Shown here piece by piece: positions 12,501 to 25,869 of a DNA stretch of 36,660 nucleotides. The stretch is from a virus. A program made the position numbers and the translations under genes. The notes under the pieces are model-generated. The model ran no database searches. It worked only from the letters and a program-made list of their open reading frames with translations, and was not told the origin of the DNA. Each line of letters starts with the position of its first letter. Positions within the stretch are counted from its first letter, which is position 1. The stretch lies in the IMG/VR virus record IMGVR_UViG_3300030202_002186, positions 1-36,660 of that record, one strand, 5' to 3'.

Positions 12501-13392
12501 CGTAGACTCTGAAATACGAGATGCGGTCTTTGAAGCTGCCAGACAATTTTCGCAGAGCGACAAAGATTCAATTACCGGTATTCCCGACTTTGCAAAAATG
12601 CGGACTTTCTTTTTTAGCGACAGAGGTAAAGTACCCCCACTTATCAAGACATTAGTGGATGCCGGTGTCTTTACATATGACGAACGTGTGCGCTTGCGTA
12701 AGCTGCTCGTGTCGGGTGAGGGTGCGCAAAAACGCATCAGTGACCCTGCATTCGATATTCTTGAGGATGTTGAAACTGGCACGGACGTATTGACGCAGTT
12801 GTTGGTGCGAATCAGCGGCTCAAAAATTGGTTCTATGGTTGGTGATTTGATGCCGGGACGGTCCTCTCAAGGCTTGATCGAAGCACAAGCTGGTTCACAA
12901 GCCGCTATGCGGTTACTCAATGCGCTGCCGGTCACCACCGTCAACAGCGTATTGGAAACCGCCATAAAAGACCCCGAATACTTGGATCTTTTGCTTGATA
13001 AAAATCTTTTATCTCCTACTGGCAGCAAACTATCCGCGTCAAAACGTCTGCTTGGGGTTCGCAAACTTAACGCATACTTAAAAAACGCCATAGGCGTGAA
13101 CATCGGCGCAATGATTGCGGAGGACCAGCCGACCACCAGTGAGATGCTACGAGTAGAAGAATTTAAGCAGCAAGGCTCGCCGTTCAGGGCACCTGAACCA
13201 GAGCCAGTGGCTCCGCCACAAGCAGCAGCGCCCATGGCTGCGCCGCTTCCAGCACCTCAACCGGCTCCCCCACCTCAAGGCGGAGCAAACCCGCAACAGC
13301 GTCAGCAGTTCGCGGCCCTGTTCCCTAACGATCCAATCTCTGGGCTGATACAGCAGCAGGGTATTGGGTCACTGCCTCAAGCGCCGAGCTAG
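9538..13392 (+). CDS. giant internal virion/ejection protein
   Basis: Encodes about 1284 residues from ATG 9538, one base after the previous TAA; the open frame extends five codons upstream to a TTG, but the ATG is preferred. Around residues 170-220 lies a Gly/Ala/Val-rich zipper-like hydrophobic stretch (GAPATAGMITGATVGAPFVP, then GAIVGGGTGLILGAVLG) that could span or insert into membrane. The following 900 residues are mostly charged helices. The C-terminus is a Pro/Ala/Gln tail (PEPEPVAPPQAAAPMAAPLP) then a Gln-rich end. Size, composition and last place in the virion operon fit the largest ejected protein of podovirus-like phages. The stop overlaps the opposing helicase stop within CTAG. 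Confidence 0.65.
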   Translation: MANERLEEARAAYQSNLKEPFQNLKAMGLMPKTGPLPEPESPQVPLAAAELIGFEQKFAPSVREFGLEPTVEAIVNNFEGPGVYRELRGTGLNDLDIVKRYMNIEKVDLPIQSMRGQGLTQDEILTTFLDDLGLDENEDLLKKGISPQDFLSTFVKGRQLTPTEAAAEGTARGVTVGAPATAGMITGATVGAPFVPPFGAIVGGGTGLILGAVLGTEAEEAIFPDEPILDPNTQALLEGTKVIGEGFTMMGAPKAFKTISDTALNSQAGFLNRLGQTIRLRSFNQEKNPVFQPGAMSETMRFLQSSDPVMFKFLRTYKDNPRAFQVGEGSAVVGAGLGAGMAEQIDPGGFTSRILGEAGGGLFLGVPFGSIAVYALAGKDALQADAKELAGQASQGSVEARVGAALRELFVARGEDPDAIQKKLRSPEFIDLLKDAEQKYDGTTRPLLDKAKIPAPTSRALTASSTLGLIEGRLRALNGRFGTEVQNQLDNQIEAVNYLINALTLTGGNNAIQTAAQIRNRHFSDLMNQRLDLALQDATKAVGQINPNSVAARNEASRRISSIIEGVFQDARAQEKQLYGRVPNNVIVGQDNLISTIQAEMAALPEEVAREVFPRAASATGARFAEQMQAAALDTRISTLEAIKNRPPAPGESFPRLTDQDRQNTGLGAFFEIDRALTEARKTREQFGDVNLEPPTYQQMLNYRSFLLSEARKAASGENPGMADARVYGVLADAIRQDLGDLENLQTLNPEISADDLAAADTARAFSKVFNDTFRRAFPNKALQNKATGADFVQPELLYRQIFQGQDDETMLRMREMDDAVRFLVNDATPGGLQKDQDALDAVLARTGALEYNFDLVMRALADNPTIINPETGEVNTRAVAAFVKRNEGTLERLPQLKADLENSAATQVLLQQVRSEAKDAERATAFGTVKLFEQLTGEMPVSAIQNVLRSEKPEEGMKNLVTRLREGARRSEAGDAPEGMPKITLDAVDSEIRDAVFEAARQFSQSDKDSITGIPDFAKMRTFFFSDRGKVPPLIKTLVDAGVFTYDERVRLRKLLVSGEGAQKRISDPAFDILEDVETGTDVLTQLLVRISGSKIGSMVGDLMPGRSSQGLIEAQAGSQAAMRLLNALPVTTVNSVLETAIKDPEYLDLLLDKNLLSPTGSKLSASKRLLGVRKLNAYLKNAIGVNIGAMIAEDQPTTSEMLRVEEFKQQGSPFRAPEPEPVAPPQAAAPMAAPLPAPQPAPPPQGGANPQQRQQFAALFPNDPISGLIQQQGIGSLPQAPS

Positions 13393-14831
13393 ATCAGCCA
13401 AGCCTTAGCTTCTTCGCCCAGCACTCGCTGGGCCAGATCGATCTTATTGCGTAAGGCCGCAATGATCTTCTCGTCTACCGTGTCTGGACTGACCAGATCC
13501 ACGTACAATACATGCTTGGTCTGACCAATACGGTGCGCTCTGTCTTCCGATTGCAGGCGTATCTCTAAGTCGTACTGGTTGCTGTAGTACACCATGTTGG
13601 TTGCAGCGGTCAGTGTCAGGCCGTAGCCCCCGGTCCGTGGGTTAGCGACAAAGAAGCGTAGCTCGCTATCTGGATCTTGGAACTCTGCAACCATTTGATC
13701 CCGGTCTTGCGTTGGCGTGTCCCCATAAAACGTGCAGACGGAGCGCAGGCCGTAGATCTTGGCCAGTTCTTCTTTGATCTTGCCAATATCAAACACCCAG
13801 CTAGCCCATATGATGACCTTGCCATTCATTTCACTGATCACGTCCAGCAGTTCGCTCATCCGATTGTTGGGTATCTCCTGCACCTGACCATCGTCAGTCT
13901 TCAGATGCCCGCAACAGATCTCCTGCAAGCGCATGATCTGCGTCAGAACGCTTTGCGTCGTCGATAGCTCGCCTTTCTCTAGCATGGCCAGCGCCATCTC
14001 TTTCATTTGTTTGTAGGCAGATTCTTGCTCTTTGGTCAGCGACACCTGACGCTGCATGTAAATCTTCTCAGGGAGATCAAGGCAGTCCTCTTTCAAGATA
14101 CGGCTGCTAAACGTCTGTAGCTTGGTGTTCAGTTCGTCAAGGTTTCTGTAGCCGGTAATCTCTTGGAAGCTGCGATTACCAAACTTGCGCGTCTTCATTA
14201 CGGCGTAGCGGCCTTGGAACGCGTAAAACGATTCAAAGCCCAGCACGTCCGTGCCCAAGAAAGCACACTGTGCGTACAGGTCCATTGGGTTCTTGGTAAT
14301 AGGGCTGCCTGTCAAGATGCGACGGTACTTTGCCGCTTTGCCCAGTTTGATAATGCTCTTGGTCCGTTTTGCGGTGCGGTTCTTGATCGACGTCGACTCA
14401 TCCACGGCCATGAGGCAGTTGGGGTTACGCTTCATAAACCATGCAGCAACGTCCGGCCCTTTCTTGGAAGAGAACGACTCCACGTTCATTACCAGTATCT
14501 TCAGGTGCTCTTGATCGTTCGTCAGGGCCATTAGTTCTGCTTTGAACTTCTGCGTCAGGTTCGGTTGCCATAACACCACGCTGCACGGCACATCGTCCGG
14601 CATGTGCTGCGGTATCTCCTTAGCTACCCAGTTGCCGTACACGCCTTTCGGTGCAATGACCACGGCTGCGTTTATCTCGCCTTCGCAGTAGAGCTTGGCC
14701 AGTGTGTCGATAGTGACTTTAGTTTTGCCTGTCCCCATCTCAAGGAACAAGGCCCACGATTCGCTGTCCCAACTCGCATCGAAGACTTCGCGCTGGTGCT
14801 CGTAAGGCTCAGTTTTGAAATTAAATTGCAT
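13389..14831 (-). CDS. SNF2-family DNA helicase/translocase (SF2)
   Basis: A 480-residue protein with the full SNF2 core: a Q-like YEHQ (10-13), Walker A MGTGKTK (Lys36), the DExx-type VDEST (about 140-146), motif III LTGSPITKNP, and the C-terminal RecA lobe ending in EDRAHRIGQ (motif VI) and YVDLVSPDTVDEKI. It should hydrolyse ATP to translocate on duplex DNA, and compact phage SNF2 proteins of this kind are thought to help replication or recombination. It is the only gene on the minus strand between two long plus-strand operons; its stop overlaps the virion operon stop (CTAG) and its start faces the replication operon. The start ATG at 14831 has only a weak AGG upstream. Confidence 0.92.
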   Translation of the reverse strand: MQFNFKTEPYEHQREVFDASWDSESWALFLEMGTGKTKVTIDTLAKLYCEGEINAAVVIAPKGVYGNWVAKEIPQHMPDDVPCSVVLWQPNLTQKFKAELMALTNDQEHLKILVMNVESFSSKKGPDVAAWFMKRNPNCLMAVDESTSIKNRTAKRTKSIIKLGKAAKYRRILTGSPITKNPMDLYAQCAFLGTDVLGFESFYAFQGRYAVMKTRKFGNRSFQEITGYRNLDELNTKLQTFSSRILKEDCLDLPEKIYMQRQVSLTKEQESAYKQMKEMALAMLEKGELSTTQSVLTQIMRLQEICCGHLKTDDGQVQEIPNNRMSELLDVISEMNGKVIIWASWVFDIGKIKEELAKIYGLRSVCTFYGDTPTQDRDQMVAEFQDPDSELRFFVANPRTGGYGLTLTAATNMVYYSNQYDLEIRLQSEDRAHRIGQTKHVLYVDLVSPDTVDEKIIAALRNKIDLAQRVLGEEAKAWLI

Positions 14832-14928
14832 GAGGTGCCTAAATTGTTTGACACATGCGATATTATGGGATTATTCTTGCTTTGGGAAGTGGCTAACGCC
14901 GCTTGAAACATGAAAAACGAGGACGACG
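14832..14928. promoter_or_regulatory. divergent regulatory region, SNF2 helicase / replication operon
   Basis: This 97-base gap separates divergent starts. On the plus strand a perfect -35 TTGACA (14848-14853) abuts CATGCGA, with GATTAT (14869-14874) as a -10 at a short 15-base spacing. On the minus strand CATAAT (complement of 14862-14867) has a TTCCCA-like -35 about 16 bases away. The plus gene has a clear GAGGA site (14919-14923) before ATG 14929. The ATGCGA element recurs at other promoters of this window. Confidence 0.55.
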
Positions 14929-15498
14929 ATGAGTAAATCTCTCTCTGATCTTATGGCTGAAGACAGCCAAAGCCCCTTGGACTTACCCTCAAACGAAGGT
15001 TTGTCGGGTGTGCAAAAGCTGGCCAATGATATCGTAGCTGCCCAAACAAGGGTAGAAAATCTTGAAGGTGATCTCAAAGCAGCGAAGCAGACATTGCTCA
15101 AGCTGACTGACGAAGATCTGCCAAGCCAGATGGCCGAAATCGGCCTGACCAACTTCACCTTAGCTGACGGCAGCAAGGTCGACATCAAAGAAACATACGG
15201 CGCAAGAATCAAAAAGGATAACGAAGAAAAAGCCTTCGATTGGCTGCGCTCGCATGGCGAGGGAGACATCATCAAAAACACCGTGACGGTGCGCTTCGGT
15301 AAGGAAAAAGACAACGAAGCTTTGGCTTTAGTTGATGAACTTAGAAACAAGCAGTGGGAGCCAGAGCAGAAGCAGGAAGTGCATGCTGGGACGCTCAAGG
15401 CTTGGGTCAAAGGCCGTATCGAGGAAGGTAAGGAGCTAGACATGGATTTGTTTGGCGTATGGGTAGGACAACGAGCAACGATCAATAAGGCAAAATGA
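14929..15498 (+). CDS. conserved replication-operon protein, unknown
   Basis: Encodes 189 residues from an ATG preceded by GAGGA. The N-terminus SLSDLMAEDSQSPLDLPSNE is followed by a helical coiled-coil-like stretch (about 28-65), then a compact alpha/beta part containing GLTNFTLADGSKVDIKETYG and a C-terminal LKAWVKGRIEEGKELDMDLFGVWVG-type segment. I cannot name a family with certainty. It heads the replication operon and overlaps the SSB-like gene by one to four bases, so the two are probably translated together. An accessory DNA-binding or replication-partner role follows from that context only. Confidence 0.65.
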   Translation: MSKSLSDLMAEDSQSPLDLPSNEGLSGVQKLANDIVAAQTRVENLEGDLKAAKQTLLKLTDEDLPSQMAEIGLTNFTLADGSKVDIKETYGARIKKDNEEKAFDWLRSHGEGDIIKNTVTVRFGKEKDNEALALVDELRNKQWEPEQKQEVHAGTLKAWVKGRIEEGKELDMDLFGVWVGQRATINKAK

Positions 15499-16319
15499 TG
15501 GCTGAGAAAGAAGATAAAAAGGTAGCGGAAAAGAAAAAGAGCGACGTAGTGGTCGCAGGGCCTGCGATGTTTGAGGCAGACGCGGGGGTTGGTATGGAGT
15601 TGAGCCAAGACGACTTGGCACTGCCGTTCTTGAAGATTGTGTCTTCAGAACTGCTCCAGCAGGACGAAAAACTGGCAGAGACTGCCAAGCTAGGCGACAT
15701 GGTGAACTCCGTGTCACGGCAGGTATACAGCGCGAAGTCGCCTCTCAAGGTGATCCCGTGTCACTACGAGCGACGGTTTCTCATGTGGGCACCGCGTGGC
15801 TCTGGCACAGGCGCACCGATGAAGATTTTTGCGCCAGACGAAGACCGGCCTCAGACAAGGCGTGATCCGGACGACAACCGCGAATACGTGGATGGCGGTA
15901 AGGGTGAGTACATCGATGAGACGCACCAGCATTACGTGCTGATCATGGAAGAGGACGGCACGATGTCTAACGCGCTGATCTCCATGAAGTCGACGCAACT
16001 CAAGAAGTCGCGCCAGTGGAACACCATGATTGCCACGCGCAGCATGGTCGGTGCTAACGGCGTGCCGTTTCAGCCACCGCGTTTCTCGCACGTCTACAAC
16101 CTGACCACGGCAAAGGAGGAGAACTCCAAAGGCGTATGGCACGGTTGGAAGATTGATCTGGATGGCCCTATAGAGGATGCCAATCAGTATCAGGCGGCTA
16201 AAGCGTTTCATACTGCGATCAGTGCAGGAGACGTGCAGGTCAAGCATGAAGAGGGTGGGGCCGCTACGGCCAAACCAAAAGCTACGCCAGAGGATAACGC
16301 TGACGACATTCCTTGGTAA
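15498..16319 (+). CDS. SSB-like single-stranded DNA-binding protein (putative)
   Basis: About 273 residues; the start is ambiguous between ATG 15495 and 15498 (ATGATG). The N-terminus is Lys-rich; the central part, from LPFLKIVSSE to RFSHVYNLTT, is beta-rich. The C-terminus is a disordered acidic tail ending ADDIPW, which closely mimics the DDIPF tip by which bacterial SSB recruits replication enzymes. Position between the replication operon head and the primase supports single-strand DNA coating at the fork. The fold itself is not recognisable by eye, so the assignment rests on the tail and context; another DNA-metabolism scaffold is possible. Confidence 0.6.
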   Translation: MAEKEDKKVAEKKKSDVVVAGPAMFEADAGVGMELSQDDLALPFLKIVSSELLQQDEKLAETAKLGDMVNSVSRQVYSAKSPLKVIPCHYERRFLMWAPRGSGTGAPMKIFAPDEDRPQTRRDPDDNREYVDGGKGEYIDETHQHYVLIMEEDGTMSNALISMKSTQLKKSRQWNTMIATRSMVGANGVPFQPPRFSHVYNLTTAKEENSKGVWHGWKIDLDGPIEDANQYQAAKAFHTAISAGDVQVKHEEGGAATAKPKATPEDNADDIPW

Positions 16320-16337
16320 AAATCCCAACGGCGTACC

Positions 16338-16374
16338 GTGCCGTCGATAGGAGGGACCGACCTATAGCGGGCAC
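16338..16374 (+). promoter_or_regulatory. leader stem-loop before primase gene
   Basis: GTGCC (16338-16342) pairs with GGCAC (16370-16374), and ATAGG (16347-16351) with CCTAT (16361-16365), separated by a symmetric 4x4 internal loop. It lies in the 79-base gap inside the replication operon. The primase gene has its own AAGGAA ribosome site just before ATG 16399. No T-tract follows, so an mRNA processing or stability element is more likely than a terminator. Confidence 0.45.
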
Positions 16375-16398
16375 CTCCATGCACGGACCAAGGAACTT

Positions 16399-17934
16399 AT
16401 GAACATTCGCAAATTTGCACAGATTTTTGATGGTCTGAAGCAGGCGCACGGCACGTTCACGATTGAGTCGAAGTCAAGCAGTGGCAAGACTCAAGGCAAA
16501 GCGAACGTAGTACGCGAAGCACGGACCAAAGAACATTGGGAAAGACACCTAGCGGGTCAGCAATCCATTGGGATTATTCCAATCAATGAAGACAATGCAT
16601 GCCGCTGGGGCTGCATTGACATCGATCAATATAACTTTGATCACAAGGCGCTAATCGACAAGATCCAAGCGGCAAAGCTACCGCTGGTGGTGTGCCGATC
16701 TAAGTCGGGCGGTGCTCACGTATTTTTATTCACAGATGAATTTATTCCTGCCAAGGACATGCAGGACGTGCTGACACAGTTGAGCGCGGGCCTTGGCTAT
16801 GGCGGCAGTGAGATCTTTCCCAAACAGATCAGCTTAAACCTAGAGCGTGGCGACGTCGGCAACTTTCTGAACATGCCGTACTTCGATCACGAAAACGGCC
16901 TGCGGTACGGGTTCAACCCTGACGGTACAGCAGCCACGTTTGATGAATTCCTTGAGCTTGTTGACCACAACGTACAGACGCACGAACAGGCACTGGCTTT
17001 GGTGGTGGAGCAAGATGCCGCACTGCCCATACCGGACGGTCCGCCTTGTCTACAGATCTTATGTAAAGAAGGCATCGGTGAAGGCGCAAGAAACAACGGA
17101 CTTTTTAATCTTGGGGTATACCTGCGCAAGGCACACCCGGAGACGTGGGAGTCAGAGATCCTGACTCACAACATGAATTTCATTCATCCACCTTTACCGC
17201 TGGGTGAAGTCAACACGGTTGCCAAGCAGCTAGAGCGTAAGGATTACGCCTACAAGTGCCGTGATGCCCCGATCAATGCGTACTGCAACCCAGAGCTTTG
17301 CAAGACGCGTAAGTTTGGTATCGATGCAGCTACCTCTGGCGTGCAGATAGCCAACCTGCGCAAGTACAACAGTGTGCCACCCGTGTGGTTCTTGGACGTT
17401 CAAGGCAAACCCCTAGAGCTTGCGACCGACGATCTGATGGTTCAGTCGGCCTTCCAGAAGGCGTGTGTCGATCAGTTGAACTTCTTCCCAAGGACTGTGC
17501 AAAAGGCGCAGTGGGAGCAGCGTATCAATGCTCTGCTCAATGAGATGAGTGACACCGAAGGTCACGTCATAGAAGTAAGCCAAGACGTCAGCGTAAACGG
17601 GCAGTTCGCCGATCACTTGGAAGAGTTCTGTACAGGTCATCAGGCTGCGGATGAGAAGGAGCAGATCTTGCTCAAGCGGCCATGGACAGATGAGGACCAG
17701 AAAGAAACGTACTTCAGGCTGAAAGATCTAGAAGCCCACCTCATCAAAGCGAACTTCAAGGTCTACAAAACACATCAAATCGCGCAACGTTTGCGGGACG
17801 TGAACGGTGAGGCCACTCAATTGCGCATACAGGGTAAAGTGATACGGTTATGGAAGATCCCTGCGCACGAGCAGGCCATAAGTCGTATAGAGCCGCCCAG
17901 CTTCGGGGGCACTGAAGAGGAGATACCGTTTTGA
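16399..17934 (+). CDS. AEP-superfamily primase
   Basis: A 511-residue protein with the archaeo-eukaryotic primase signature: CIDIDQY gives the metal-binding Asp74-x-Asp76, and SKSGGAHVFLF supplies His107 of the sxH motif. These are followed by FPKQ and GNFLNMPYF segments typical of phage AEP primases. A Cys cluster (YKCRDAPINAYCNPELCKT, about residues 290-310) looks like a zinc-binding element of the C-terminal half. It should synthesise primers for the phage PolA and may also extend them, as some AEPs are primase-polymerases. It precedes the UvrD helicase in the same operon, overlapping the intervening small gene by 4 bases. Confidence 0.85.
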   Translation: MNIRKFAQIFDGLKQAHGTFTIESKSSSGKTQGKANVVREARTKEHWERHLAGQQSIGIIPINEDNACRWGCIDIDQYNFDHKALIDKIQAAKLPLVVCRSKSGGAHVFLFTDEFIPAKDMQDVLTQLSAGLGYGGSEIFPKQISLNLERGDVGNFLNMPYFDHENGLRYGFNPDGTAATFDEFLELVDHNVQTHEQALALVVEQDAALPIPDGPPCLQILCKEGIGEGARNNGLFNLGVYLRKAHPETWESEILTHNMNFIHPPLPLGEVNTVAKQLERKDYAYKCRDAPINAYCNPELCKTRKFGIDAATSGVQIANLRKYNSVPPVWFLDVQGKPLELATDDLMVQSAFQKACVDQLNFFPRTVQKAQWEQRINALLNEMSDTEGHVIEVSQDVSVNGQFADHLEEFCTGHQAADEKEQILLKRPWTDEDQKETYFRLKDLEAHLIKANFKVYKTHQIAQRLRDVNGEATQLRIQGKVIRLWKIPAHEQAISRIEPPSFGGTEEEIPF

Positions 17935-18194
17935 TTATTTTAGAAGGGTTTGACGCAGCTATTCTGGGCGTAGGCGAGTCCGCCGGTTGGGACGCTCCGC
18001 TTGTCGTCTATGACTATCAAAAATGCCTAGACGTTTTGATGAAGGATAACGACTGGGAAAAAGAGGACGCGATAGCGTGGATGGACTCTAACGTCATCAA
18101 CGTGTACATGGGCAGAGGCAACCCTGTTTTTGTCTTTCCAAGCGTCGATTTGGCAGAACTTGCCTTTGAAATCAAAAAGGAGATGTTGCACTAA
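17931..18194 (+). CDS. small conserved phage protein, unknown
   Basis: Encodes 87 residues from a TTG start that overlaps the primase stop (TTGA). GAGGAGAT (17918-17925) is a strong ribosome site at normal distance, which supports this unusual start. The sequence (LVVYDYQKCLDVLMKDNDW and a C-terminal NPVFVFPSVDLAELAFEIKK) resembles a small acidic alpha/beta protein often seen beside phage replication genes, but it has no assigned function. It overlaps the helicase start by one base (TAATG), so translation is probably coupled. Confidence 0.7.
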   Translation: MIILEGFDAAILGVGESAGWDAPLVVYDYQKCLDVLMKDNDWEKEDAIAWMDSNVINVYMGRGNPVFVFPSVDLAELAFEIKKEMLH

Positions 18195-19723
18195 TGCAGC
18201 GTATTTTTGGGCCACCGGGGACGGGCAAGACCACCACGCTTCTTAATCTTGTTGAAGCAGAACTGGGCAAAGGCACGTATCCGGGGCACATTGCTTTCTT
18301 TGCCTTTACGCGCAAAGCGGCAAATGAGGCTAAGGAACGAGCAGCAAAACGTTTCGGGCTTGATCCAAAAAACGATCTGCCGTACTTCCGGACACTGCAC
18401 AGTCTGGCATTTCACCTGACAGGGCTACGCAACGATCAGTTGATGACGGCATCGCATTATCGTGAAGTTGAGCACGTCACAGGGGTCAATTTCATGGAAG
18501 GCAGCGTGTCGTCCCGGCACGAGGTTGAGGAAGAACTGAGCAACAGCCTGAAAAAAGAAACGCCCTTGCTGCGTTTGATCACATTGGCACGGCTGAAGAT
18601 GAACCCGCTCAAAGATGAGTACAACCTGAGTGATCTTGACCAGCCATGGATCGAAGTCGACTACGCCGCCAACTCTTTGAAAAGCTATAAGAAAAAGCAC
18701 GGCCTGTTTGACTACACCGACATGCTGGAGCTTTTTGCGGATACTGCGCACGTTGCGTGCCCCCAGTTCAAGCTTGCGATGCTTGACGAAGCACAGGACC
18801 TGTCCCCTCTACAATGGAAGATAGCCCACGCTATCGACGGGCGCTCAGAGCGCATGTACTGCGCTGGTGACGACGATCAGGCTATCTACAAGTGGTCTGG
18901 CGCGGACGTAGAGCATTTTATCAATCTGGACGGCGGCAGTGAGGTGCTGGAGCAAAGCTACCGTGTCCCATCCAACATCCACGCGATTGCAGAGCGGATC
19001 TGCGGACGCATCAAGCGCCGGTTCCCCAAGAAGTACCTGCCCAAGAAAGCGAACGGCAAGCTGGAGCGACTAACAGACTTCTTTGAACTGGATATGCGAG
19101 AGGACACGTGGCTGTTTTTGGCACAAGCCAACTACTTTTTGGCACCGGTACAGCAATTTTTAAAAAGTCAGGGCTACTACTTTGAGTACGGTGGTGGTGT
19201 GCGTAGCGTTAGAGACAAAATACGTGTGGCATTGTCGGCTTGGGGCTGTATGCAGAACGGTGACCCGATCTCCTTCGACGCAGCTAAGGCCATGTATTCG
19301 TTTATGTCCGGCAACGGCGTGCGTGTCTTACGTGGTCACAAGAAGATCGTAGGCGATCCCGATGCGTTATTTACCTATGAGGACTTGCGGGACTTCAACG
19401 GCTTGCTGGCCACACCTGATATGGCTTGGAACGAGGCTCTCGACAAGCTGCCAGATGTCGATGTGGCGTACATTAACGCCCTCGTCCGGAGAGGTGAGGA
19501 TCTGACGGCAGAGCCGCGCATACGGCTGTCCACGATCCACGGAGCCAAAGGCGGTGAGGCGGACAATGTCGTGCTGTTTACCGACATCACCGCAGCAGCA
19601 GAAGCCAGCATGGAAAGCGATCCAGACTCCATGCACCGCGTCTTTTACGTGGCAGTCACACGAACCCGCCAGAACCTTTACACACTAGAACCCGCCGACT
19701 TTTACAGGAGCTATGCACTATGA
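18194..19723 (+). CDS. UvrD/Rep-like SF1 DNA helicase
   Basis: A 509-residue protein carrying the complete SF1A motif series: Walker A GPPGTGKTTT (Lys12), motif Ia FAFTRKAANEAKERA, Walker B MLDEAQDLSPLQW, motif III AGDDDQAIYKWSGAD, motif IV LEQSYRVPSN, motif V LSTIHGAKGGEADNVVLFTD and motif VI RVFYVAVTRTRQNLY. It is shorter than chromosomal UvrD (about 720), consistent with trimmed accessory domains. It should unwind DNA 3' to 5' ahead of, or in support of, PolA. It overlaps neighbours at both ends, being the fifth gene of the replication operon; its stop overlaps the DUF3310 start as ATGA. Confidence 0.95.
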   Translation: MQRIFGPPGTGKTTTLLNLVEAELGKGTYPGHIAFFAFTRKAANEAKERAAKRFGLDPKNDLPYFRTLHSLAFHLTGLRNDQLMTASHYREVEHVTGVNFMEGSVSSRHEVEEELSNSLKKETPLLRLITLARLKMNPLKDEYNLSDLDQPWIEVDYAANSLKSYKKKHGLFDYTDMLELFADTAHVACPQFKLAMLDEAQDLSPLQWKIAHAIDGRSERMYCAGDDDQAIYKWSGADVEHFINLDGGSEVLEQSYRVPSNIHAIAERICGRIKRRFPKKYLPKKANGKLERLTDFFELDMREDTWLFLAQANYFLAPVQQFLKSQGYYFEYGGGVRSVRDKIRVALSAWGCMQNGDPISFDAAKAMYSFMSGNGVRVLRGHKKIVGDPDALFTYEDLRDFNGLLATPDMAWNEALDKLPDVDVAYINALVRRGEDLTAEPRIRLSTIHGAKGGEADNVVLFTDITAAAEASMESDPDSMHRVFYVAVTRTRQNLYTLEPADFYRSYAL

Positions 19724-19959
19724 GCGATATGGTCAACTCACCGAGCCACTATGCTGACTCAGAGATTGAATGCATCGATGCCATGGTCGCGGCTTTCGGT
19801 ACAGAGGCCGTGCAGATGTACTGTCGTTTAGCTAGCTTCAAGTACCAATGGCGGGCCGGAAAAAAGTTCGATGCGGTTGAAGATTTAAAAAAATCTATTT
19901 GGTATACGCGTTTTGCGCTGGGCGATGACCCAAGGAAAGACGATGCAAAAGGAAACTAG
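19720..19959 (+). CDS. DUF3310 (SaV-like) protein
   Basis: A 79-residue protein with the family opening VNSPSHYADSEIECIDAM and the following YCRLASFKYQWRAGKKFD..EDLKKSIWY, matching DUF3310, a small protein common in phage replication or nucleotide-metabolism regions. The function is not established. It starts at an ATG overlapping the helicase stop (ATGA), and its 3' end overlaps the PolA start by 17 bases in another frame. This tight placement argues that its production is tied to the helicase-polymerase pair. Confidence 0.88.
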   Translation: MSDMVNSPSHYADSEIECIDAMVAAFGTEAVQMYCRLASFKYQWRAGKKFDAVEDLKKSIWYTRFALGDDPRKDDAKGN

Positions 19960-21850
19960 GTTACAGTTCCCGTTGTTTGCGACCGAAACAGAGTGGACGG
20001 CACCTTACGAGTTTGTTGACCTGACAGACGCCAAAGAGATTGCCATTGACCTAGAAACACGTGACCCCAACCTCAAGCAGATGGGTCCGGGCTGGCCCCG
20101 CAAGGACGGCGACGTTGTTGGCATAGCGGTCGCTACTGAGGGCTTTGAAGCCTACTACCCTATTGATCACCTTGGTGGTGGTAATCTCGACAAGCGGCAG
20201 GTGCTGCGTTGGCTAGCCAAGCAGTTATCCACAGACTGCCCAAAGATCATGCACAACGCACCCTACGATCTGGGCTGGCTCAAGGCGCTCGACGTGCCGG
20301 TAAACGGCCCGATCATCGATACGATGGTGATGGCGGCGCTGCTCGACGAAAATCGTTTCAGTTACTCTCTGAACGCTCTGTCATACGACTATCTGGGCCT
20401 AGCCAAGTCAGAGAAGCTTCTGACGCAGGCTGCGGTAGAGTTTGGGGTAGACCCCAAGGGCGAGCTTTGGAAGCTCCCTGCGCAGTTTGTGGGGCCGTAT
20501 GCAGAGCAAGACGCACGGCTGGCCTACGATCTGTACAAGTTTTTCCGCGTAGAAATCAACAAGCAGGACCTAGAAACCATCTTCGATCTCGAAACACGGC
20601 TCACGCCCTGCCTGATCGACATGACGTTTCGCGGAATACGGGTAGATCTAGAGCGATGTGAGCGGTCGAAGCAACAACTTTTAAAAAGAGAGAAGCAGAC
20701 CTACCGGGAAATCAACAAAGAAGCAGGCTTTGACGTCGAGATCTGGGCGGCAACTTCTCTAGCCAAAGCATTCGACAAGCTAAAAGTTGCCTATCCCCGA
20801 ACGGCCAAGGGCGCACCGTCTTTCACCAAGGCATTTTTGAGCGAGAACCCGCATCCGTTTGCCAAAATGATCATCGAGGCACGAAACCTCAACAAGATCC
20901 AAGGCACGTTTATCAACAACATAATGAAGTTTGTGGGCGCTGACTCTCGTATCCACGGGCACATCAATCAGCTACGCAGCGATGACGGAGGCACTGTCTC
21001 CGGACGCCTGTCTATGTCGAACCCAAACCTTCAGCAGATTCCTGCTCGCGATCCAGAGCTAGGACCTATGATTCGCAGCCTGTTCCTGCCGGAAGAGGGA
21101 GAACTGTGGGCTGCTATAGACTACTCGCAGCAAGAACCACGGATCTTGACCCACTACGCCAGCGTTTTTGGCAAGTGGAAAGGTCTGCCGCTGGGTGGAG
21201 CGAAAGAATTTGTCGACGGGTACACCAATGACCCAGACATGGACTTTCATACCATGGTTGCCGACATGGCAAACATCAGCCGCAAACAGGCGAAGACGAT
21301 CAATCTAGGCATGATGTACGGCATGGGCGTGCGCAAGCTGGCTGACCAACTGGATCTGGAGTTTGATGACGCCAAAGAACTGACGCAGCAGTACCACAAG
21401 CGGGTGCCGTTTGTGAAAGAGCTAATGAACGGCGTATCGCGGTCCGTGGATCAAAAGTCAGACGGGTCACTGCGATCTTTGAAAGGCCGCAAGTGTCGGT
21501 TCGATATGTTTGAACCGATGGGCTACGACGTGCAGAAAGCCATGCCTTTGAAGGAAGCAAAGGCTACCTACGGCGAGACTGCACCACTCAAGCGTGCATA
21601 CACCTACAAGGCGCTAAACAGGCTGATACAGGCATCTGCGGCGGACATGACCAAGCAGGCCATGGTCGATCTGTACGAGGCTGGAGAACGCCCCTTGTTG
21701 CAGGTGCATGATGAGCTAGGGTGCAGCGTGGCCAACATAGAGCATGCCAAGAAAATACGTGAAGTCATGGAAGCTGCGATCAAGCTTCAGGTGCCGAGCA
21801 AATGCGACATTGACCTTGGGCCAAGTTGGGGAGAAACTAGCGAAATATAA
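19943..21850 (+). CDS. polA: family A DNA polymerase with 3'-5' exonuclease
   Basis: About 635 residues from ATG 19943, preceded by AAGGA; an upstream in-frame start at 19913 would lack a good ribosome site. The exonuclease domain shows DLET (Asp36, Glu38), MHNAPYDLGWL and YAEQDARLAYDLY. The polymerase domain shows motif A AAIDYSQQEPRIL (about residue 390), motif B RKQAKTINLGMMYGMG and motif C QVHDELG (about 588). There is no 5'-nuclease domain. In motif B the residue equivalent to E. coli Phe762 is Leu455. This enzyme should copy the phage genome. It is last in the replication operon. In virioplankton surveys, Leu at this site has been linked with slower, possibly temperate phages. Confidence 0.96.
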   Translation: MQKETRLQFPLFATETEWTAPYEFVDLTDAKEIAIDLETRDPNLKQMGPGWPRKDGDVVGIAVATEGFEAYYPIDHLGGGNLDKRQVLRWLAKQLSTDCPKIMHNAPYDLGWLKALDVPVNGPIIDTMVMAALLDENRFSYSLNALSYDYLGLAKSEKLLTQAAVEFGVDPKGELWKLPAQFVGPYAEQDARLAYDLYKFFRVEINKQDLETIFDLETRLTPCLIDMTFRGIRVDLERCERSKQQLLKREKQTYREINKEAGFDVEIWAATSLAKAFDKLKVAYPRTAKGAPSFTKAFLSENPHPFAKMIIEARNLNKIQGTFINNIMKFVGADSRIHGHINQLRSDDGGTVSGRLSMSNPNLQQIPARDPELGPMIRSLFLPEEGELWAAIDYSQQEPRILTHYASVFGKWKGLPLGGAKEFVDGYTNDPDMDFHTMVADMANISRKQAKTINLGMMYGMGVRKLADQLDLEFDDAKELTQQYHKRVPFVKELMNGVSRSVDQKSDGSLRSLKGRKCRFDMFEPMGYDVQKAMPLKEAKATYGETAPLKRAYTYKALNRLIQASAADMTKQAMVDLYEAGERPLLQVHDELGCSVANIEHAKKIREVMEAAIKLQVPSKCDIDLGPSWGETSEI

Positions 21851-21851
21851 C

Positions 21852-21869
21852 TTTTCAGGACGCTGAAAA
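21852..21869 (+). promoter_or_regulatory. hairpin overlapping the ribosome site of the low-complexity gene
   Basis: TTTTCAG (21852-21858) and CTGAAAA (21863-21869) form a perfect 7-bp stem with a GACG loop, ending one base before ATG 21870. The AGGA ribosome site (21857-21860) is inside it, so folding would hide the site. Whether this regulates translation is inference. Confidence 0.5.
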
Positions 21870-22820
21870 ATGTTTGGACCTGCAATGGGTGGTATGGGCG
21901 GCGGATTTGGCCAGCAAGGCGGATTTGGCCAGCAAGGCGGATTTAGGGGACAACAACAAATGTCGCCTTTCGGGCAGCCCATGAATCGACAGCCGATGGG
22001 GGGCTTTGGTCAACAACCCCAACAATTTGGTGGGGGCTTTCCGCAACCCCAACAGCAGTTTGGCGGGGGCTTTCAGCAACCTATGCGACAGCCAATGCAG
22101 CAGTTTGGTGGGGGCTTCGGTGGGGGCTTTCAAGGACAGGGCGGATTTGGGCAACAACCTCAACAGCAATTCGGAGGTGGTTTTCAAGGACAAGGCGGAT
22201 TTGGGCAACCTCAACAACAATTTGGCGGGGGCTTCGGTGGCGGTTTTCAGCAAATGCCTCAACAGCAATTTGGCGGGGGCTTTCAAGGACAAGGCGGCTT
22301 CGGCGGCATGATGGGCGGCTTCGGCGGTCCTGCGGCAGCCCAGCAACAAGCAATGCAGAGGATGATGGGCGGTATGGGCGGCGGTCAAATGGGCCAGTTC
22401 GGTGGTGGGTTTCAATCCCAAGGCCCACAAGATTTAAGGCAAATACGGCAACGACAAAGCGATGCCATGTTTGATCGTCAAGGCCGTGGTGGCCGGGGTA
22501 ATCAAGGTCAAGACATGAAGATTGATATAGATCAATTTCAAGCAAAGCCATCACCTCCTGTGGCAATGAACCAAAGAGATATGACCAGACTGCAAGGTCG
22601 TGGATTCGGCGGTGGGTTTCAATCCCAAGGACCACAAGATTTAAGGGGAATGCAGGCACGACAAATCGATTCCATGTTTCAATCTCAAGGGCCACGAAAC
22701 ATGCGACAAATGACTGCGATGCCTCAACTGTCGCGAGGTATTGGCGGGTTTGGAGGGCAACGCGGACTTGCGCAAGGCAGGTTTTCTAACCTCCAAGACG
22801 CAATGAGAACTTTTCGATAA
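21870..22820 (+). CDS. Phe-Gly/Gln-rich low-complexity protein
   Basis: A 316-residue protein unlike its neighbours. Residues 1-150 are built almost wholly of Gly, Gln, Phe, Met and Pro in imperfect repeats such as QQFGGGFQGQGGFGQ. The C-terminal half is more mixed but repeats GGGFQSQGPQDLR, with related RQ/SMF phrases, two to three times, and contains Arg-rich spacers. There is no transmembrane, enzyme or folded-domain motif. The composition resembles FG-repeat or prion-like disordered proteins that form condensates or gels; such a role here is inference. It follows PolA after a 19-base gap carrying a hairpin over its ribosome site. A structural or coat-associated role is the main alternative. 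Confidence 0.75.
   Translation: MFGPAMGGMGGGFGQQGGFGQQGGFRGQQQMSPFGQPMNRQPMGGFGQQPQQFGGGFPQPQQQFGGGFQQPMRQPMQQFGGGFGGGFQGQGGFGQQPQQQFGGGFQGQGGFGQPQQQFGGGFGGGFQQMPQQQFGGGFQGQGGFGGMMGGFGGPAAAQQQAMQRMMGGMGGGQMGQFGGGFQSQGPQDLRQIRQRQSDAMFDRQGRGGRGNQGQDMKIDIDQFQAKPSPPVAMNQRDMTRLQGRGFGGGFQSQGPQDLRGMQARQIDSMFQSQGPRNMRQMTAMPQLSRGIGGFGGQRGLAQGRFSNLQDAMRTFR
21901..21947 (+). repeat. 18-bp tandem repeat in the low-complexity gene
   Basis: GCGGATTTGGCCAGCAAG is repeated exactly at 21901-21918 and 21919-21936, with a diverging third copy from 21937. It encodes GFGQQG units. The exact identity at DNA level suggests recent slippage or duplication. Confidence 0.85.
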
Positions 22821-22824
22821 ACCC

Positions 22825-22853
22825 TTGAATTAGTATGCGACATGCGCGATAAT
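22825..22853 (+). promoter_or_regulatory. strong promoter for the RHH gene, probably leaderless
   Basis: TTGAAT (22825-22830) and GATAAT (22848-22853) have the ideal 17-base spacing. The start codon at 22861 lies seven bases after the -10, where transcription would begin, so the mRNA should be leaderless; no ribosome site is present. TATGCGA (22834-22840) and the related CATGCGCGA sit in the spacer and may be the operator. Confidence 0.75.
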
Positions 22854-22860
22854 CTCTTGC

Positions 22861-23028
22861 ATGGATACAACGAAATGGAAGTCGATTCTGGTGCCAATGC
22901 CAGTTTATCGTCAGATCAAAGAAATTGCGCAGATAGAAGACCGCACGATCAGCGGACAACTGCGTAAGATTTTCAACGAGTGGAAAGAAGACCGCGCTAG
23001 AGAGGCGCGCGAACTCGACTCCGCTTAG
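22861..23028 (+). CDS. ribbon-helix-helix DNA-binding regulator (Arc/CopG-like)
   Basis: A 55-residue protein. A short N-terminal beta segment (KWKSILVPMP) is followed by helix A (VYRQIKEIAQIED) and helix B (TISGQLRKIFNEWKEDRA), with the hydrophobic pattern of Arc/MetJ-type ribbon-helix-helix domains. Such proteins dimerise and bind DNA through the paired strands. A strong promoter lies directly upstream and the ATG sits at the predicted transcription start, so the message is likely leaderless. Its 3' end overlaps the convergent last gene of the minus operon by 32 bases. It is the best candidate for the phage's repressor-like switch protein. Confidence 0.8.
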   Translation: MDTTKWKSILVPMPVYRQIKEIAQIEDRTISGQLRKIFNEWKEDRAREARELDSA

Positions 23029-23233
23029 ATAAAAACCGCCTGCGCAGTTCCAACCGACAGCAGTTGATTGTTGTCATCCATTCTTTTGATTTTTCTTCTG
23101 ATGCATCAGGGTATGCAACCAACAGCGACGAGGTGTCCAGTAGCTTTTTCTGGATGTCGCTGATCTTTTCTTCTTTCGCCAGTTCTTCAAGAACTTTCGT
23201 TGTGAACGTTTTACCTACTTCACCCGCTGCCAA
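22997..23233 (-). CDS. small unknown protein, last gene of minus operon
   Basis: Encodes 78 residues from a TTG start (23233) with GGAGG about nine bases upstream, overlapping the previous gene by 14 bases. The sequence is helical and charged, ending in a basic tail (RRRFLSKRSRVR), and shows no recognised family. Its 3' end overlaps the convergent RHH gene by 32 bases. The TTG start and basic C-terminus make it less certain than its neighbours; it could be a non-essential accessory protein. Confidence 0.5.
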   Translation of the reverse strand: MAAGEVGKTFTTKVLEELAKEEKISDIQKKLLDTSSLLVAYPDASEEKSKEWMTTINCCRLELRRRFLSKRSRVRAPL

Positions 23234-23453
23234 GTTGTAGTGCCTCCAGTTTTTGTTCGACGGATGTCCATGTGTCTTTGATGCACTGCTCTTCGGTCTT
23301 GCTATGGCTATGGAACCAGAAGCATGTACCGATCAAGCCGTGAATCCTTGGATCGTCCTTGGAACTTTTTAAAAGTCTGAGCAAGAACAGCCCTTCGTCG
23401 GGGGACAGATTAAGGGAAAGGGTTGCTTCTTCAATTTCTGTCACTTCTGTCAT
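23220..23453 (-). CDS. small unknown protein, minus operon
   Basis: A 77-residue acidic protein starting at ATG 23453, with GAGG about nine bases upstream and a GATAAT -10-like hexamer in the same leader. LSLNLSPDEGLFLLRLLKSS and HSKTEEQCIKDTWTSVEQKLEAL suggest a mainly helical fold. No family is recognised. It follows a structured 237-base intergenic stretch holding three repeated hairpin-prone units, and overlaps the next gene by 14 bases. Confidence 0.6.
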   Translation of the reverse strand: MTEVTEIEEATLSLNLSPDEGLFLLRLLKSSKDDPRIHGLIGTCFWFHSHSKTEEQCIKDTWTSVEQKLEALQLGSG

Positions 23454-23472
23454 ATAGATTATCCTCTAGAAA

Positions 23473-23650
23473 AGCCCCGCCTTTGGGCACCCGGACGGGA
23501 ACGGGCAAGGAGAGAGTGTGTTTATCTCTCTGCCCAATTTAGCCCGCCTTCTGGCACGCGGACGGGAACGCGCGTTTCAGGGCTGGAGTGCCCTTGCCAA
23601 AACAGTGCCGTCTTGTGGGCACGCGGACGGCGCGCGCTTGGAGCGGAGTG
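23473..23650. repeat. three imperfect 65-bp structured repeats (noncoding)
   Basis: Units at about 23473, 23542 and 23606 share the core GGCACGCGGACGGGAACG (with variation) and end in GGAGTG-like tails about 30 bases later. Each can fold: GTGCC/GGCAC and GCCGTC/GACGGC in the third, GCCC/GGGC in the first, CCGC/GCGG in the second. They fill most of the gap 23454-23690 inside the minus operon. No T-tract or open frame is convincing. They could be RNA structures between the two halves of the operon or protein-binding DNA repeats; spacing of 69 and 64 bases rules out a CRISPR-like regularity. Confidence 0.7.
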
Positions 23651-23690
23651 ATAACCGCATCCCAAACTGGTTTGCCCCAGAGCATATCAA

Positions 23691-24206
23691 TTATTTTGTC
23701 CTAACCGGAACCACCGATTGCAGTTCTACATCAAAATCGAATTTGCAGGAGGCCAGCGACTCAAGCTTCTTACGCAGTTTATTCAACCGCCCTTCTTGCC
23801 CATACAGAGCGCGGTAAGTGGGGTTGCTGACCGCATAATCTCCCGTTTGAGCCTCAAAACGTTGGTAATCCTCTCTGATGTCCATCGAAGTCGTGGTCAA
23901 CAGATCCAACAAAATTGCAATATCGTCGTTGTTCAACGCCGTGATGTTCGCGGTGCGCGGCTCTTCGTTGTCGCGCGGCTCTTCGTTGTCGCGCAAGAAC
24001 GTCCGCACGCGGTCCACGGTGCGCTCTGAGGGCCTTTTGATCGTGCCAAACACGAAACCCTTCATGGTGGCGTAGTCAACGCCTACCGCTTTAGAAACCG
24101 CTTTGATGCCCCCAGTAATCTTACTGCCAGATTTCTCCGCTGCGTCTACTGCAAGGGCGTTCATTTGTGTCTGCATCTCGTGCAGCTTTAAGTTATTTAC
24201 TGTCAT
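23691..24206 (-). CDS. HTH-like putative regulator, minus operon
   Basis: Encodes 171 residues from ATG 24206, immediately after the shared ribosome cassette GGAGATAGTGATG; an ATG four codons upstream belongs to that leader. Residues about 30-75 (KITGGIKAVSKAVGVDYATM through RPSERTVDRVRTFLRD) look like a helix-turn-helix or small phage regulator fold, and a long charged helix follows. A tandem duplication gives RDNEEPRDNEEP at residues 72-83. It overlaps the previous gene by 14 bases. A transcriptional role is inferred from the HTH pattern. Confidence 0.6.
   Translation of the reverse strand: MTVNNLKLHEMQTQMNALAVDAAEKSGSKITGGIKAVSKAVGVDYATMKGFVFGTIKRPSERTVDRVRTFLRDNEEPRDNEEPRTANITALNNDDIAILLDLLTTTSMDIREDYQRFEAQTGDYAVSNPTYRALYGQEGRLNKLRKKLESLASCKFDFDVELQSVVPVRTK
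23955..23994 (-). repeat. 18-bp tandem duplication in the HTH-like gene
   Basis: The unit GCGCGGCTCTTCGTTGTC is repeated twice exactly, with a partial third copy, adding a second RDNEEP to the protein in frame. Exact identity points to recent slippage. Confidence 0.85.
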
Positions 24207-24414
24207 CACTATCTCCAATGCCTAAAAATTTTAAGGTTGCTTTGAACTTTAAAAAGTTCACGGTGTTTACCGGCAACATCGCAGTCAAATTGCTGATGAT
24301 GTCATCCAGTTCTTCGCGCTCACTCTTTGTTTTGTTCGGCAGCAGACGCATCACCAGCCCCTGATACAGGGCTTCTTCTGCGCTTTCGGGGTTTTTGTCC
24401 ATGCTGTAGTTCAT
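24193..24414 (-). CDS. small unknown protein overlapping its upstream gene
   Basis: A 73-residue acidic, helical protein. Its ATG (24414) follows the recurrent ribosome cassette GGAGAAAGTGA exactly, which strongly supports translation from here. No family is recognised. Its first 95 bases lie inside the 3' end of the previous gene in another frame, while its own 3' end overlaps the HTH-like gene by 14 bases. It may be a phage accessory or counter-defence protein, but this is not shown. Confidence 0.6.
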   Translation of the reverse strand: MNYSMDKNPESAEEALYQGLVMRLLPNKTKSEREELDDIISNLTAMLPVNTVNFLKFKATLKFLGIGDSDDSK

Positions 24415-24541
24415 TCACTTTCTCCAACAGGGTTTCCATTTGCTGTTCCATTACAGACAGCCGCTCATCAAGACCAAGAAGCAGCGTTACCACTCGCTCC
24501 GCTTCTTCTTGATCAAAGATTATTGTCAGTTCGCCTTTCAC
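24320..24541 (-). CDS. small coiled-coil protein with basic C-terminus
   Basis: About 73 residues from GTG 24541, which overlaps the upstream TGA as GTGA and suggests coupled translation; a longer TTG start at 24586 is possible. The protein has TIIFDQEEAERVVTLLLG, then a coiled-coil stretch LSVMEQQMETLLEKVNELQ, then a Lys/Arg-rich segment QKPRKRRRSP. No family is known to me. The last 95 bases overlap the next gene in a different frame, so one of the two coding claims deserves caution; the ribosome cassette favours the other gene. Confidence 0.5.
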   Translation of the reverse strand: MKGELTIIFDQEEAERVVTLLLGLDERLSVMEQQMETLLEKVNELQHGQKPRKRRRSPVSGAGDASAAEQNKE

Positions 24542-25020
24542 GATGGCGACGCTATTGTTTGCACATCGACCACATGGTCTGACCAACTGGAGTCGTCTCG
24601 CGCTTTACGGATTGCTTCCTGCTCTGTCTTAGCAGTGACACCCCTGACGACGCTGGTCTGAACGATGGTCACGTCCCATTGCTTGGCGCTGGACGCCAAT
24701 CCGGTGACTGCGATTCGGGTGTGCTCGCTGCCGTTCCAGTCGACTTCCAAGCCCGCTTCGCGGATCGTGTCGCAAATAGTATGACCAAATTTTTCTCCGA
24801 CTTTGCCGCCCCACGCCAGATAGCAAACGCCAGCATCTTTCAAATTCTCCGCGTCTTGCATGTGATAAAAAACGTAAGCCATTTCTTTGTCTTCGGGGAT
24901 CTCCGACAGCCCGCAGGACTGACAGCACGTGTGGTTGGCCTTGGCAAAGAACCCCTTATCGCGGAGCGCGGCAAACGCTAAGTCAATACGACGTGCGATT
25001 TTCTTGGCGTCTTTGTGCAT
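24538..25020 (-). CDS. Cys-motif protein (DUF6891-like), first gene of minus operon
   Basis: Encodes 160 residues from ATG 25020, placed just after the shared GGAGAAAGTGAAA cassette; an apparent TTG start upstream is inside that leader. The protein carries CCQSCG (Cys32, 33, 36), a phrase like that of the DUF6891 family, then YVFYHMQDAENLKDAGVCYLAWGG. The cysteines could bind metal. It leads the minus-strand operon of six overlapping genes and faces the divergent promoter region shared with the gene at 25098. The family link is from memory of the motif; function is unknown. Confidence 0.6.
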   Translation of the reverse strand: MHKDAKKIARRIDLAFAALRDKGFFAKANHTCCQSCGLSEIPEDKEMAYVFYHMQDAENLKDAGVCYLAWGGKVGEKFGHTICDTIREAGLEVDWNGSEHTRIAVTGLASSAKQWDVTIVQTSVVRGVTAKTEQEAIRKARDDSSWSDHVVDVQTIASPS

Positions 25021-25040
25021 TTTCACTTTCTCCAAAAAGC

Positions 25041-25082
25041 TTGAAATGCGATGGTATGCGAGTTATCTTAGCTTTGCAACAC
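25041..25082. promoter_or_regulatory. divergent promoters with TATGCGA boxes
   Basis: Plus strand: TTGAAA (25041-25046) and TATCTT (25064-25069) are 17 bases apart. Minus strand: TTGCAA (complement of 25077-25082) has TACCAT after 17 bases. ATGCGA (25046-25051) and TATGCGA (25055-25061) lie between, nine bases apart, and could be shared operator sites controlling both directions. Confidence 0.6.
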
Positions 25083-25097
25083 TAAATTGGAAAAAAG

Positions 25098-25688
25098 ATG
25101 GCACACAGTCTGAACAACTCCAAAGCAGCCGACTTTATGAAGCGCACGTCGCAGTACTCGACCCACGGGTCACGGCGGGGATACGTGGACCACGGCTCGT
25201 ACATCGTAGAAACCGATTGGAACCGCGAAGCACTGATCCTTCAAAAAGTTGAATTGCAAGCTAAGATCAATACCTTCCGCACCAAGTACAAACTGCCAAA
25301 AAAGAAAAAAATCGATGAGTTGATCGTCCCTTCGATCCGCAACAACGACCGCAATACGTATAAAAAAATCAAAAAACGCCGGTCATATAGCGCAGAAGAG
25401 CTAGAGCACATAAAGGCATGCGCAAAAAAGCTCACGGCCCTTGATGCACAAATTTTAAAAATGCCGCCGAGCCGAAATATCTCTACGAGCGTACCGCAGC
25501 AGATGTTGGCTATCTTGAGCCAACGCAGCCCAGAGCTTTACAGGGCGCTAGAAAAGGAAGCCACAAAACAAATCGCTCGTGCAGCGGCTGAAGCGGTTAG
25601 ACCCGATGAGCTAGCGGGCGAAGAGAGGCGAATCTTTTTGACGATCAAAGAACGGCAGGAGAGCAGGACGGAGCGTCTAAGTGATTAG
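25098..25688 (+). CDS. basic helical protein, unknown
   Basis: A 196-residue Lys/Arg-rich protein with no recognised family. The N-terminus (AHSLNNSKAADFMKRTSQYS, SRRGYVDHGSYIVETDWNREA) is followed by a charged helix, a very basic stretch (KLPKKKKIDELIV through YKKIKKRRSYS) and a C-terminal helical part. It is transcribed away from the minus operon by the divergent promoter region. A nucleic-acid-binding role is plausible from composition only. The ribosome site is weak (TTGGAAAAAAG before ATG 25098). Confidence 0.6.
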   Translation: MAHSLNNSKAADFMKRTSQYSTHGSRRGYVDHGSYIVETDWNREALILQKVELQAKINTFRTKYKLPKKKKIDELIVPSIRNNDRNTYKKIKKRRSYSAEELEHIKACAKKLTALDAQILKMPPSRNISTSVPQQMLAILSQRSPELYRALEKEATKQIARAAAEAVRPDELAGEERRIFLTIKERQESRTERLSD

Positions 25689-25726
25689 CTTTTTCTTGTC
25701 AACCCTTCGCTGTAAAATAAATGCAT

Positions 25727-25792
25727 TTGTCTAAGTTGTGTCTAAGAACTGGGGTAGACAAGGCGGGTAAGGTATGGGATAATGTGCATACC
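25727..25792 (+). promoter_or_regulatory. operator-rich promoter for the gene at 25870
   Basis: TAGACA (25755-25760) and GATAAT (25778-25783) are 17 bases apart, a strong promoter. TGTCTAAG occurs twice as direct repeats (25728 and 25739), 11 bases apart, and TAGACA is its inverted counterpart. GGTATG (25771-25776) and CATACC (25787-25792) form a perfect dyad around the -10. This looks like a tightly regulated promoter. Confidence 0.75.
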
Positions 25793-25815
25793 GACTAAGG
25801 AAAGGACCTTGTCGG
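25791..25815 (+). promoter_or_regulatory. 5'-end hairpin of the 25870 transcript
   Basis: CCGAC (25791-25795) pairs with GTCGG (25811-25815), and AAGG (25797-25800) with CCTT (25807-25810), with one bulged T and an AAAGGA loop. The expected transcription start is at about 25790, so the RNA would begin with this stem. Such 5' stems usually protect messages from decay. Confidence 0.55.
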
Positions 25816-25821
25816 GGGCAA

Positions 25822-25837
25822 TGTTCCACGTGGAACA
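25822..25837. promoter_or_regulatory. parS: parS-like ParB-binding site (copy 1)
   Basis: TGTTCCACGTGGAACA is a perfect 16-bp palindrome and fits the chromosomal parS consensus TGTTNCACGTGNAACA. It lies in the leader region between the strong promoter at 25755-25783 and ATG 25870. An identical copy is at 36295. ParB binding here could recruit or spread on the phage DNA and also block transcription from the upstream promoter. No parB gene is seen in this window. Confidence 0.8.
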
Positions 25838-25869
25838 ACCCAGATCTTTAACAACTTGGAGATAGTGAT

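Follow-up and report, generated by a model that had tools for sequence, protein, structure and literature searches.

Distributed aromatic residues are a feature of protein regions that drive condensate formation (PMC12143593). In the linker of Escherichia coli SSB, which contains 17 Gly and 11 Gln in 56 residues, condensation is reported to be driven by glycine-rich stretches together with aromatic and positively charged residues, with the few aromatic residues and Arg being important (PMC12143593). For phages, a PLAAC survey reported 1.35% of proteins as positive for prion-like domains; where these proteins had an assigned role, it was mostly a tail or attachment function, and the replication-linked ones included SSBs (PMC5694896). 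Low-complexity phage proteins are already known; the compositional class considered here, rich in Gly, Phe, and Gln (GFQ-rich), and its distribution were not found described in the titles and abstracts of the literature on phage proteins that are glycine-rich, low in complexity, prion-like, or of the FG type. The member analyzed here is a 316-residue protein encoded in a virus contig of 36,660 nt (IMG/VR record IMGVR_UViG_3300030202_002186), the whole of which is referred to as the window.

Host phage and genomic context

The gene order of the window (structural genes, SNF2 helicase, Pam3 gp33/gp34-like genes, primase, UvrD, PolA, small genes, and TerL) is that of DSL-LC04, and the PolA is 53–54% identical to those of DSL-LC04, 023Pt_psg01, and Pelagibacter phage HTVC023P. 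By these features, the virus is classified as a DSL-LC04/HTVC023P-like phage. The family 'Dishuiviridae' has been proposed for DSL-LC04 (PMC10611076), and HTVC023P-type pelagiphages are treated as podoviruses (PMC9599517). At 36.7 kb, compared to 57–62 kb in related records, the contig is a fragment; it stops after TerL, with the portal-capsid-adaptor block outside it. The structural module includes a 659-residue Gly/Gln-rich protein (5296–7275) that has no match in PHROGs. A stretch of 63 residues of this protein matches the IMG/VR locus L171, which itself carries a GFQ-rich ORF.

The GFQ-rich gene behind polA

The GFQ-rich gene (21870–22820, plus strand) directly follows the gene for DNA polymerase A (polA; 19913–21850, plus strand), with 19 nt between the polA stop codon and the ATG of the GFQ-rich ORF. 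The usual downstream neighbor of polA is a small conserved gene for a 55-residue protein that begins with MDTTKWKS (22861–23028, plus strand) and that we take to resemble a small regulator of the ribbon-helix-helix type. A small gene with this or a similar start and a conserved promoter follows polA in 61 of 80 PolA relatives, and its distance from the polA stop codon is 36–45 bp in the 17 closest relatives (L003–L019), compared to 1010 bp in the window. One of these, L003, is 94.6% identical to the window over positions 12994–21849 (8.9 kb, up to the end of polA) and has 36 bp in place of the 1010 bp. The segment that is absent from the relatives at this site spans ~974 bp (21851–22824, plus strand, with ends uncertain by a few bases) and carries the ORF together with its own ribosome site; polA lies outside it, and the sigma-70-like promoter of the next gene (TTGAAT-17-GATAAT; 22825–22853, plus strand) is intact and untouched.

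In none of the 80 PolA relatives, 3 of which end right after polA, do the 3 kb that follow polA contain a GFQ-rich ORF, which rules out a core replication gene. IMG/VR scans found the gene only in the window and in the contig L002 (sample 3300030109), and the genome contigs searched gave no relative. L002 is identical to the window over positions 19428–25860, has the same junctions, and then diverges. The shared junctions make an assembly chimera unlikely. The identity is so high that both contigs may come from the same population. In L034–L036, the slot after polA is occupied by a relative of the window gene at 17931–18194, which makes this slot a site for accessory genes. Taken from these comparisons, the GFQ-rich gene is a recently gained single-gene accessory cassette, inserted cleanly between the polA stop codon and the next promoter. 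The preliminary description of this DNA had drawn attention to the place of the gene after PolA. The adjacency is real, but it is weak evidence for a replication role because it results from the recent insertion of a single gene, and none of the 80 relatives has such an ORF.

A hairpin (TTTTCAG/GACG/CTGAAAA; 21852–21869, plus strand) partly covers the AGGA ribosome site (21857–21860). This hairpin had also been singled out as unusual; it exists, but its 51-nt fold has a modest advantage over shuffled sequences (z = −2.04), of which 11 out of 200 equaled or surpassed it. Of note, the direct repeat AACTTTTC occurs near both ends of the insert (21849–21856 and 22808–22815), with a chance probability of ~0.8% by window sampling. 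A target-site duplication is not claimed from it, as the empty site is without the repeat.

The Gln codons of the GFQ-rich gene differ from those of primase, UvrD, and PolA combined (Fisher p = 1e-7) and are not different from those of the four large structural genes (p = 0.66). GFQ-rich ORFs of other phages were CAA-shifted relative to their own neighbors at 9 of 10 loci read (of 13 selected). This weakens the case for a late-module origin from codon bias, and the hint of such an origin is largely a property of ORFs of this kind.

Composition, coding, and predicted disorder

Both the ORF and the composition of its product agree with the Gly-Phe-Gln-rich protein of 316 residues that had been described at 21870–22820. 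The protein contains 27.8% Gly, 23.1% Gln, 10.8% Phe, 8.2% Met, and 1.6% Asn, so that Gly and Gln together make up 51%. It has 34 Phe, 29 of which adjoin Gly, as well as 24 Lys/Arg and 20 FG dipeptides. In its richest stretch of 80 residues, Gly, Gln, Phe, Met, and Pro account for 99%, compared to at most 70% in DSL-LC04, HTVC023P, and HTVC027P. Residues 1–182 form a low-complexity core (entropy 2.37 bits) of almost exclusively these five residues, with 4 Lys/Arg and no Asp/Glu. Residues 183–316 form a basic and more complex C-terminal part (20 Lys/Arg vs 10 Asp/Glu; 3.54 bits), to which three FQSQGP modules starting at residues 181, 250, and 270 are assigned. The Phe residues of the core are spaced more regularly than in shuffled sequences: the coefficient of variation is 0.63 compared to a mean of 0.87 (4% of 2000 shuffles were as low), and the windowed Fano factor is 0.366 compared to 0.781 (1.8%). 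These features support a sticker-and-spacer composition, with Phe and Arg as stickers and Gly and Gln as spacers.

The frame of 316 codons is intact, and non-overlapping internal repeat pairs differ at 8, 10, and 19 sites at codon positions 1, 2, and 3, respectively. This third-position excess supports coding in the plus-strand frame 21870–22820. The C-terminal module, present in two 86-nt copies that are 84% identical (22398–22483 and 22605–22690, plus strand), does not show the excess when taken alone (5/5/4). An antisense ORF was rejected as a real gene: the longest antisense run was 234, compared to a mean of 233 in 300 synonymous recodings. The long antisense ORFs are by-products.

AlphaFold2 without an alignment predicted just two short low-confidence helices with a mean pLDDT of 47.3, a low value that is expected for any orphan protein. 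By its charge-hydropathy relation, too, the protein falls among disordered chains (H 0.403, boundary 0.429). Intrinsic disorder of the 316-residue protein is supported at the level of prediction. Searches gave no PHROGs or Pfam family, PDB chain, or INPHARED match, although composition filters may hide weak matches. Neither a confident fold nor a known family, either of which would count against the preliminary description, emerged.

GFQ-rich look-alikes in related aquatic phages

Degenerate-codon scans of IMG/VR yielded 269 loci, in which 38 ORFs were GFQ- or GYQ-rich by one fixed threshold (window and L002 excluded). Because the scans relied on composition-based patterns, the sharing of GGFGQQ-type units among these look-alikes is partly built in. 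A homologue of the DSL-LC04-type tail adaptor lies 1–407 bp away from 23 of the 38 ORFs; wherever the gene order was read, the ORF was directly upstream of the adaptor gene and on the same strand. The 23 ORFs fall into ~4 sequence groups and do not represent 23 independent events. The loci of two more (L230 and L279) contain a DSL-LC04-like capsid gene, and in L450 a gap of 12 bp separates the ORF from a downstream homologue (51% identical) of the window structural gene at 1117–3012. Matches to structural genes of the window are weaker for L171, L271, and L224, and the TerL of the carrier L449 is 54% identical to that of the window over 467 residues. PolA, UvrD, or primase of the window type had no match in the fetched stretches of any of the 38 loci.

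None of the look-alikes matched the window protein in BLASTP below E 0.05, a test limited by low complexity, and their DNA similarity to the window gene was no better than that of recoded controls (best 42.8 bits, compared to a recoding median of 60.8). They match the window protein in make-up, without demonstrable sequence homology. Eighty adaptor loci were also picked by adaptor similarity, and 10 with <500 bp upstream were set aside. No true GFQ-rich ORF was present in the remaining 70, which have at least 500 bp upstream; two flagged loci, L363 and L374, are rich in K/G/M/P rather than in GFQ. This rules out the GFQ-rich gene as a fixed neck component. Four PolA relatives (35 searched) had a readable adaptor region, and a GFQ-rich ORF was absent from the stretches read. 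GFQ-type proteins recur sporadically in related aquatic phages.

The 18-bp unit that encodes GGFGQQ in the window gene occurs as one exact tandem pair (21900–21917 and 21918–21935, plus strand). The preliminary description had reported exact 18-bp repeats, which holds for this pair; the remaining copies are degenerate and have diverged, in the core chiefly at third codon positions. In adaptor-slot GFQ genes, 14 GGYGQQ units are present in L439 (4068–5204), 12 in L448 (9293–10393), and 23 in L443 (2249–3547). Over 5400 bp, a single 36-bp gap, equal to two GGYGQQ units, is the sole difference between L439 and L448. Because 18-bp units are gained and lost in this way, recent duplication of GGFGQQ-coding units is probably the best explanation for the exact short repeats of the window.

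L245 (2640–3404) and L292 (1822–2679) encode apparent SSB-type proteins, named from sequence, with long GFQ-rich tails. This suggests that the GFQ composition is also used in fusion to ssDNA-binding domains.

A candidate phage SSB

In the window, the Pam3 gp34-like protein of 274 residues (15495–16319) ends with NADDIPW and the primase (16399–17934) with GTEEEIPF. Both ends resemble the C-terminal tip of bacterial SSB. Among homologues with a readable stop codon, 42 of 46 for the 274-residue protein and 54 of 55 for primase end with Pro-Phe or Pro-Trp, compared to 0 of 40 for DUF7307, 0 of 74 for UvrD, and 0 of 80 for PolA. The AlphaFold2 model of the 274-residue protein has a mean pLDDT of 77. 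Among the modest matches listed for this model, the phiC31 RDF had a Z of 7.5 (rmsd 4.1, 153 residues aligned), followed by BRCA2 OB folds and SSBs with Z 3–5.6. The 274-residue OB-like protein is put forward as a candidate phage SSB, with the primase bearing the same tip.

Possible roles of the GFQ-rich protein

We tentatively favor the reading that the 316-residue protein is a self-associating disordered protein resembling the SSB linker, with clients among the DNA and replication proteins of the phage and with virion or neck assembly as a close second. It would work like an enlarged, free-standing Gly/Gln-rich SSB linker and self-associate by way of numerous weak contacts, Phe-Phe and Phe-Arg, with Gly and Gln as spacers. 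Such multivalent contacts would give rise to a droplet or gel inside the infected cell, and the protein may thus form droplets or gels during infection. Its basic C-terminal part would hold nucleic acid or partners, and read-through from polA would have it made together with the replication proteins, which is the ground for placing its clients there. Two points speak against a special replication role: all close relatives lack the gene, and the look-alikes lie in neck modules.

A somewhat less probable reading is that of a disordered protein made late and associated with the virion or its assembly (a neck or tail gel, a plug, or an assembly condensate), of the type found beside the tail adaptor in related phages, that moved to the polA slot or re-evolved there. 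This idea gains indirect support because compositionally similar ORFs in related phages occupy head-neck modules, with 23 of 38 next to the tail adaptor and that of L450 next to the structural-gene homologue; the TerL identity of the carrier L449 and the Gln codons, which are like those of structural and unlike those of replication genes, point the same way. However, the window copy sits in the replication cluster and has no demonstrable homology to the adaptor-slot ORFs beyond composition, the class is not fixed at the neck, as the 70 adaptor loci indicate, and the codon argument is weak, with most other GFQ loci being likewise CAA-shifted. It is rather unlikely that the gene is an almost neutral repeat ORF that expands by itself, or an accessory factor aimed at the host, with neither a replication nor a virion role. 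Its very narrow distribution (window and L002), the freely changing repeat number of GFQ genes elsewhere, and the C-terminal duplicate lacking a third-position excess would fit this, whereas the intact frame with differences that are third-position-biased overall, and the recurrence of similar proteins next to one adaptor gene across several sequence groups, speak against it. A broader proposal, which we hold to be improbable, is that recurrent free-standing, disordered 'FG/YG-gel' proteins in aquatic DSL-LC04/HTVC023P-like phages are selected for composition, not sequence, vary in repeat number among phages that are otherwise identical, and serve as a neck hydrogel plug or assembly condensate, the window copy having been redeployed as a replication condensate.

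If this is true, mid-sized phages would make dedicated condensate or gel proteins, beyond disordered tails on folded proteins. The repeat series of 12, 14, and 23 units, together with the present/absent pair of the window and L003, would make the relation of valency to function directly testable, and the class would provide non-eukaryotic comparators for FG-type gels.

Comparison with known systems

The preliminary description had likened the composition to that of FG-nucleoporins and prion-like proteins. Like FG-nucleoporins, the window protein is a chain, predicted to be disordered, with numerous FG dipeptides; all 20 are bare, as neither GLFG nor FxFG occurs in the protein, and it is Gln/Met-rich, has no pore anchor, and belongs to a prokaryotic virus, so the likeness is loose. 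Its Gln-rich low complexity resembles that of PLAAC-positive phage prion-like domains, but Asn is scarce, which sets it apart by composition from the N-rich prion type, and Gly and Phe are prominent. The adaptor-slot ORFs of DSL-LC04-like phages are similar in composition, in GG(F/Y)GQQ units, and in belonging to the same wider phage group. However, they lie in the neck module and are often Tyr-rich, whereas the window gene lies 3' of polA. The E. coli SSB linker is, in our analysis, probably the best physical comparator. Both are about half Gly and Gln, with scattered aromatic and positively charged residues and predicted disorder. In contrast to the linker, the 316-residue protein is free-standing, about six times longer, and far richer in Phe and Met, and it differs from SSB in lacking an OB-fold core (no confident fold in the single-sequence model and no family match) and an acidic C-terminal tip, as it ends with NLQDAMRTFR.
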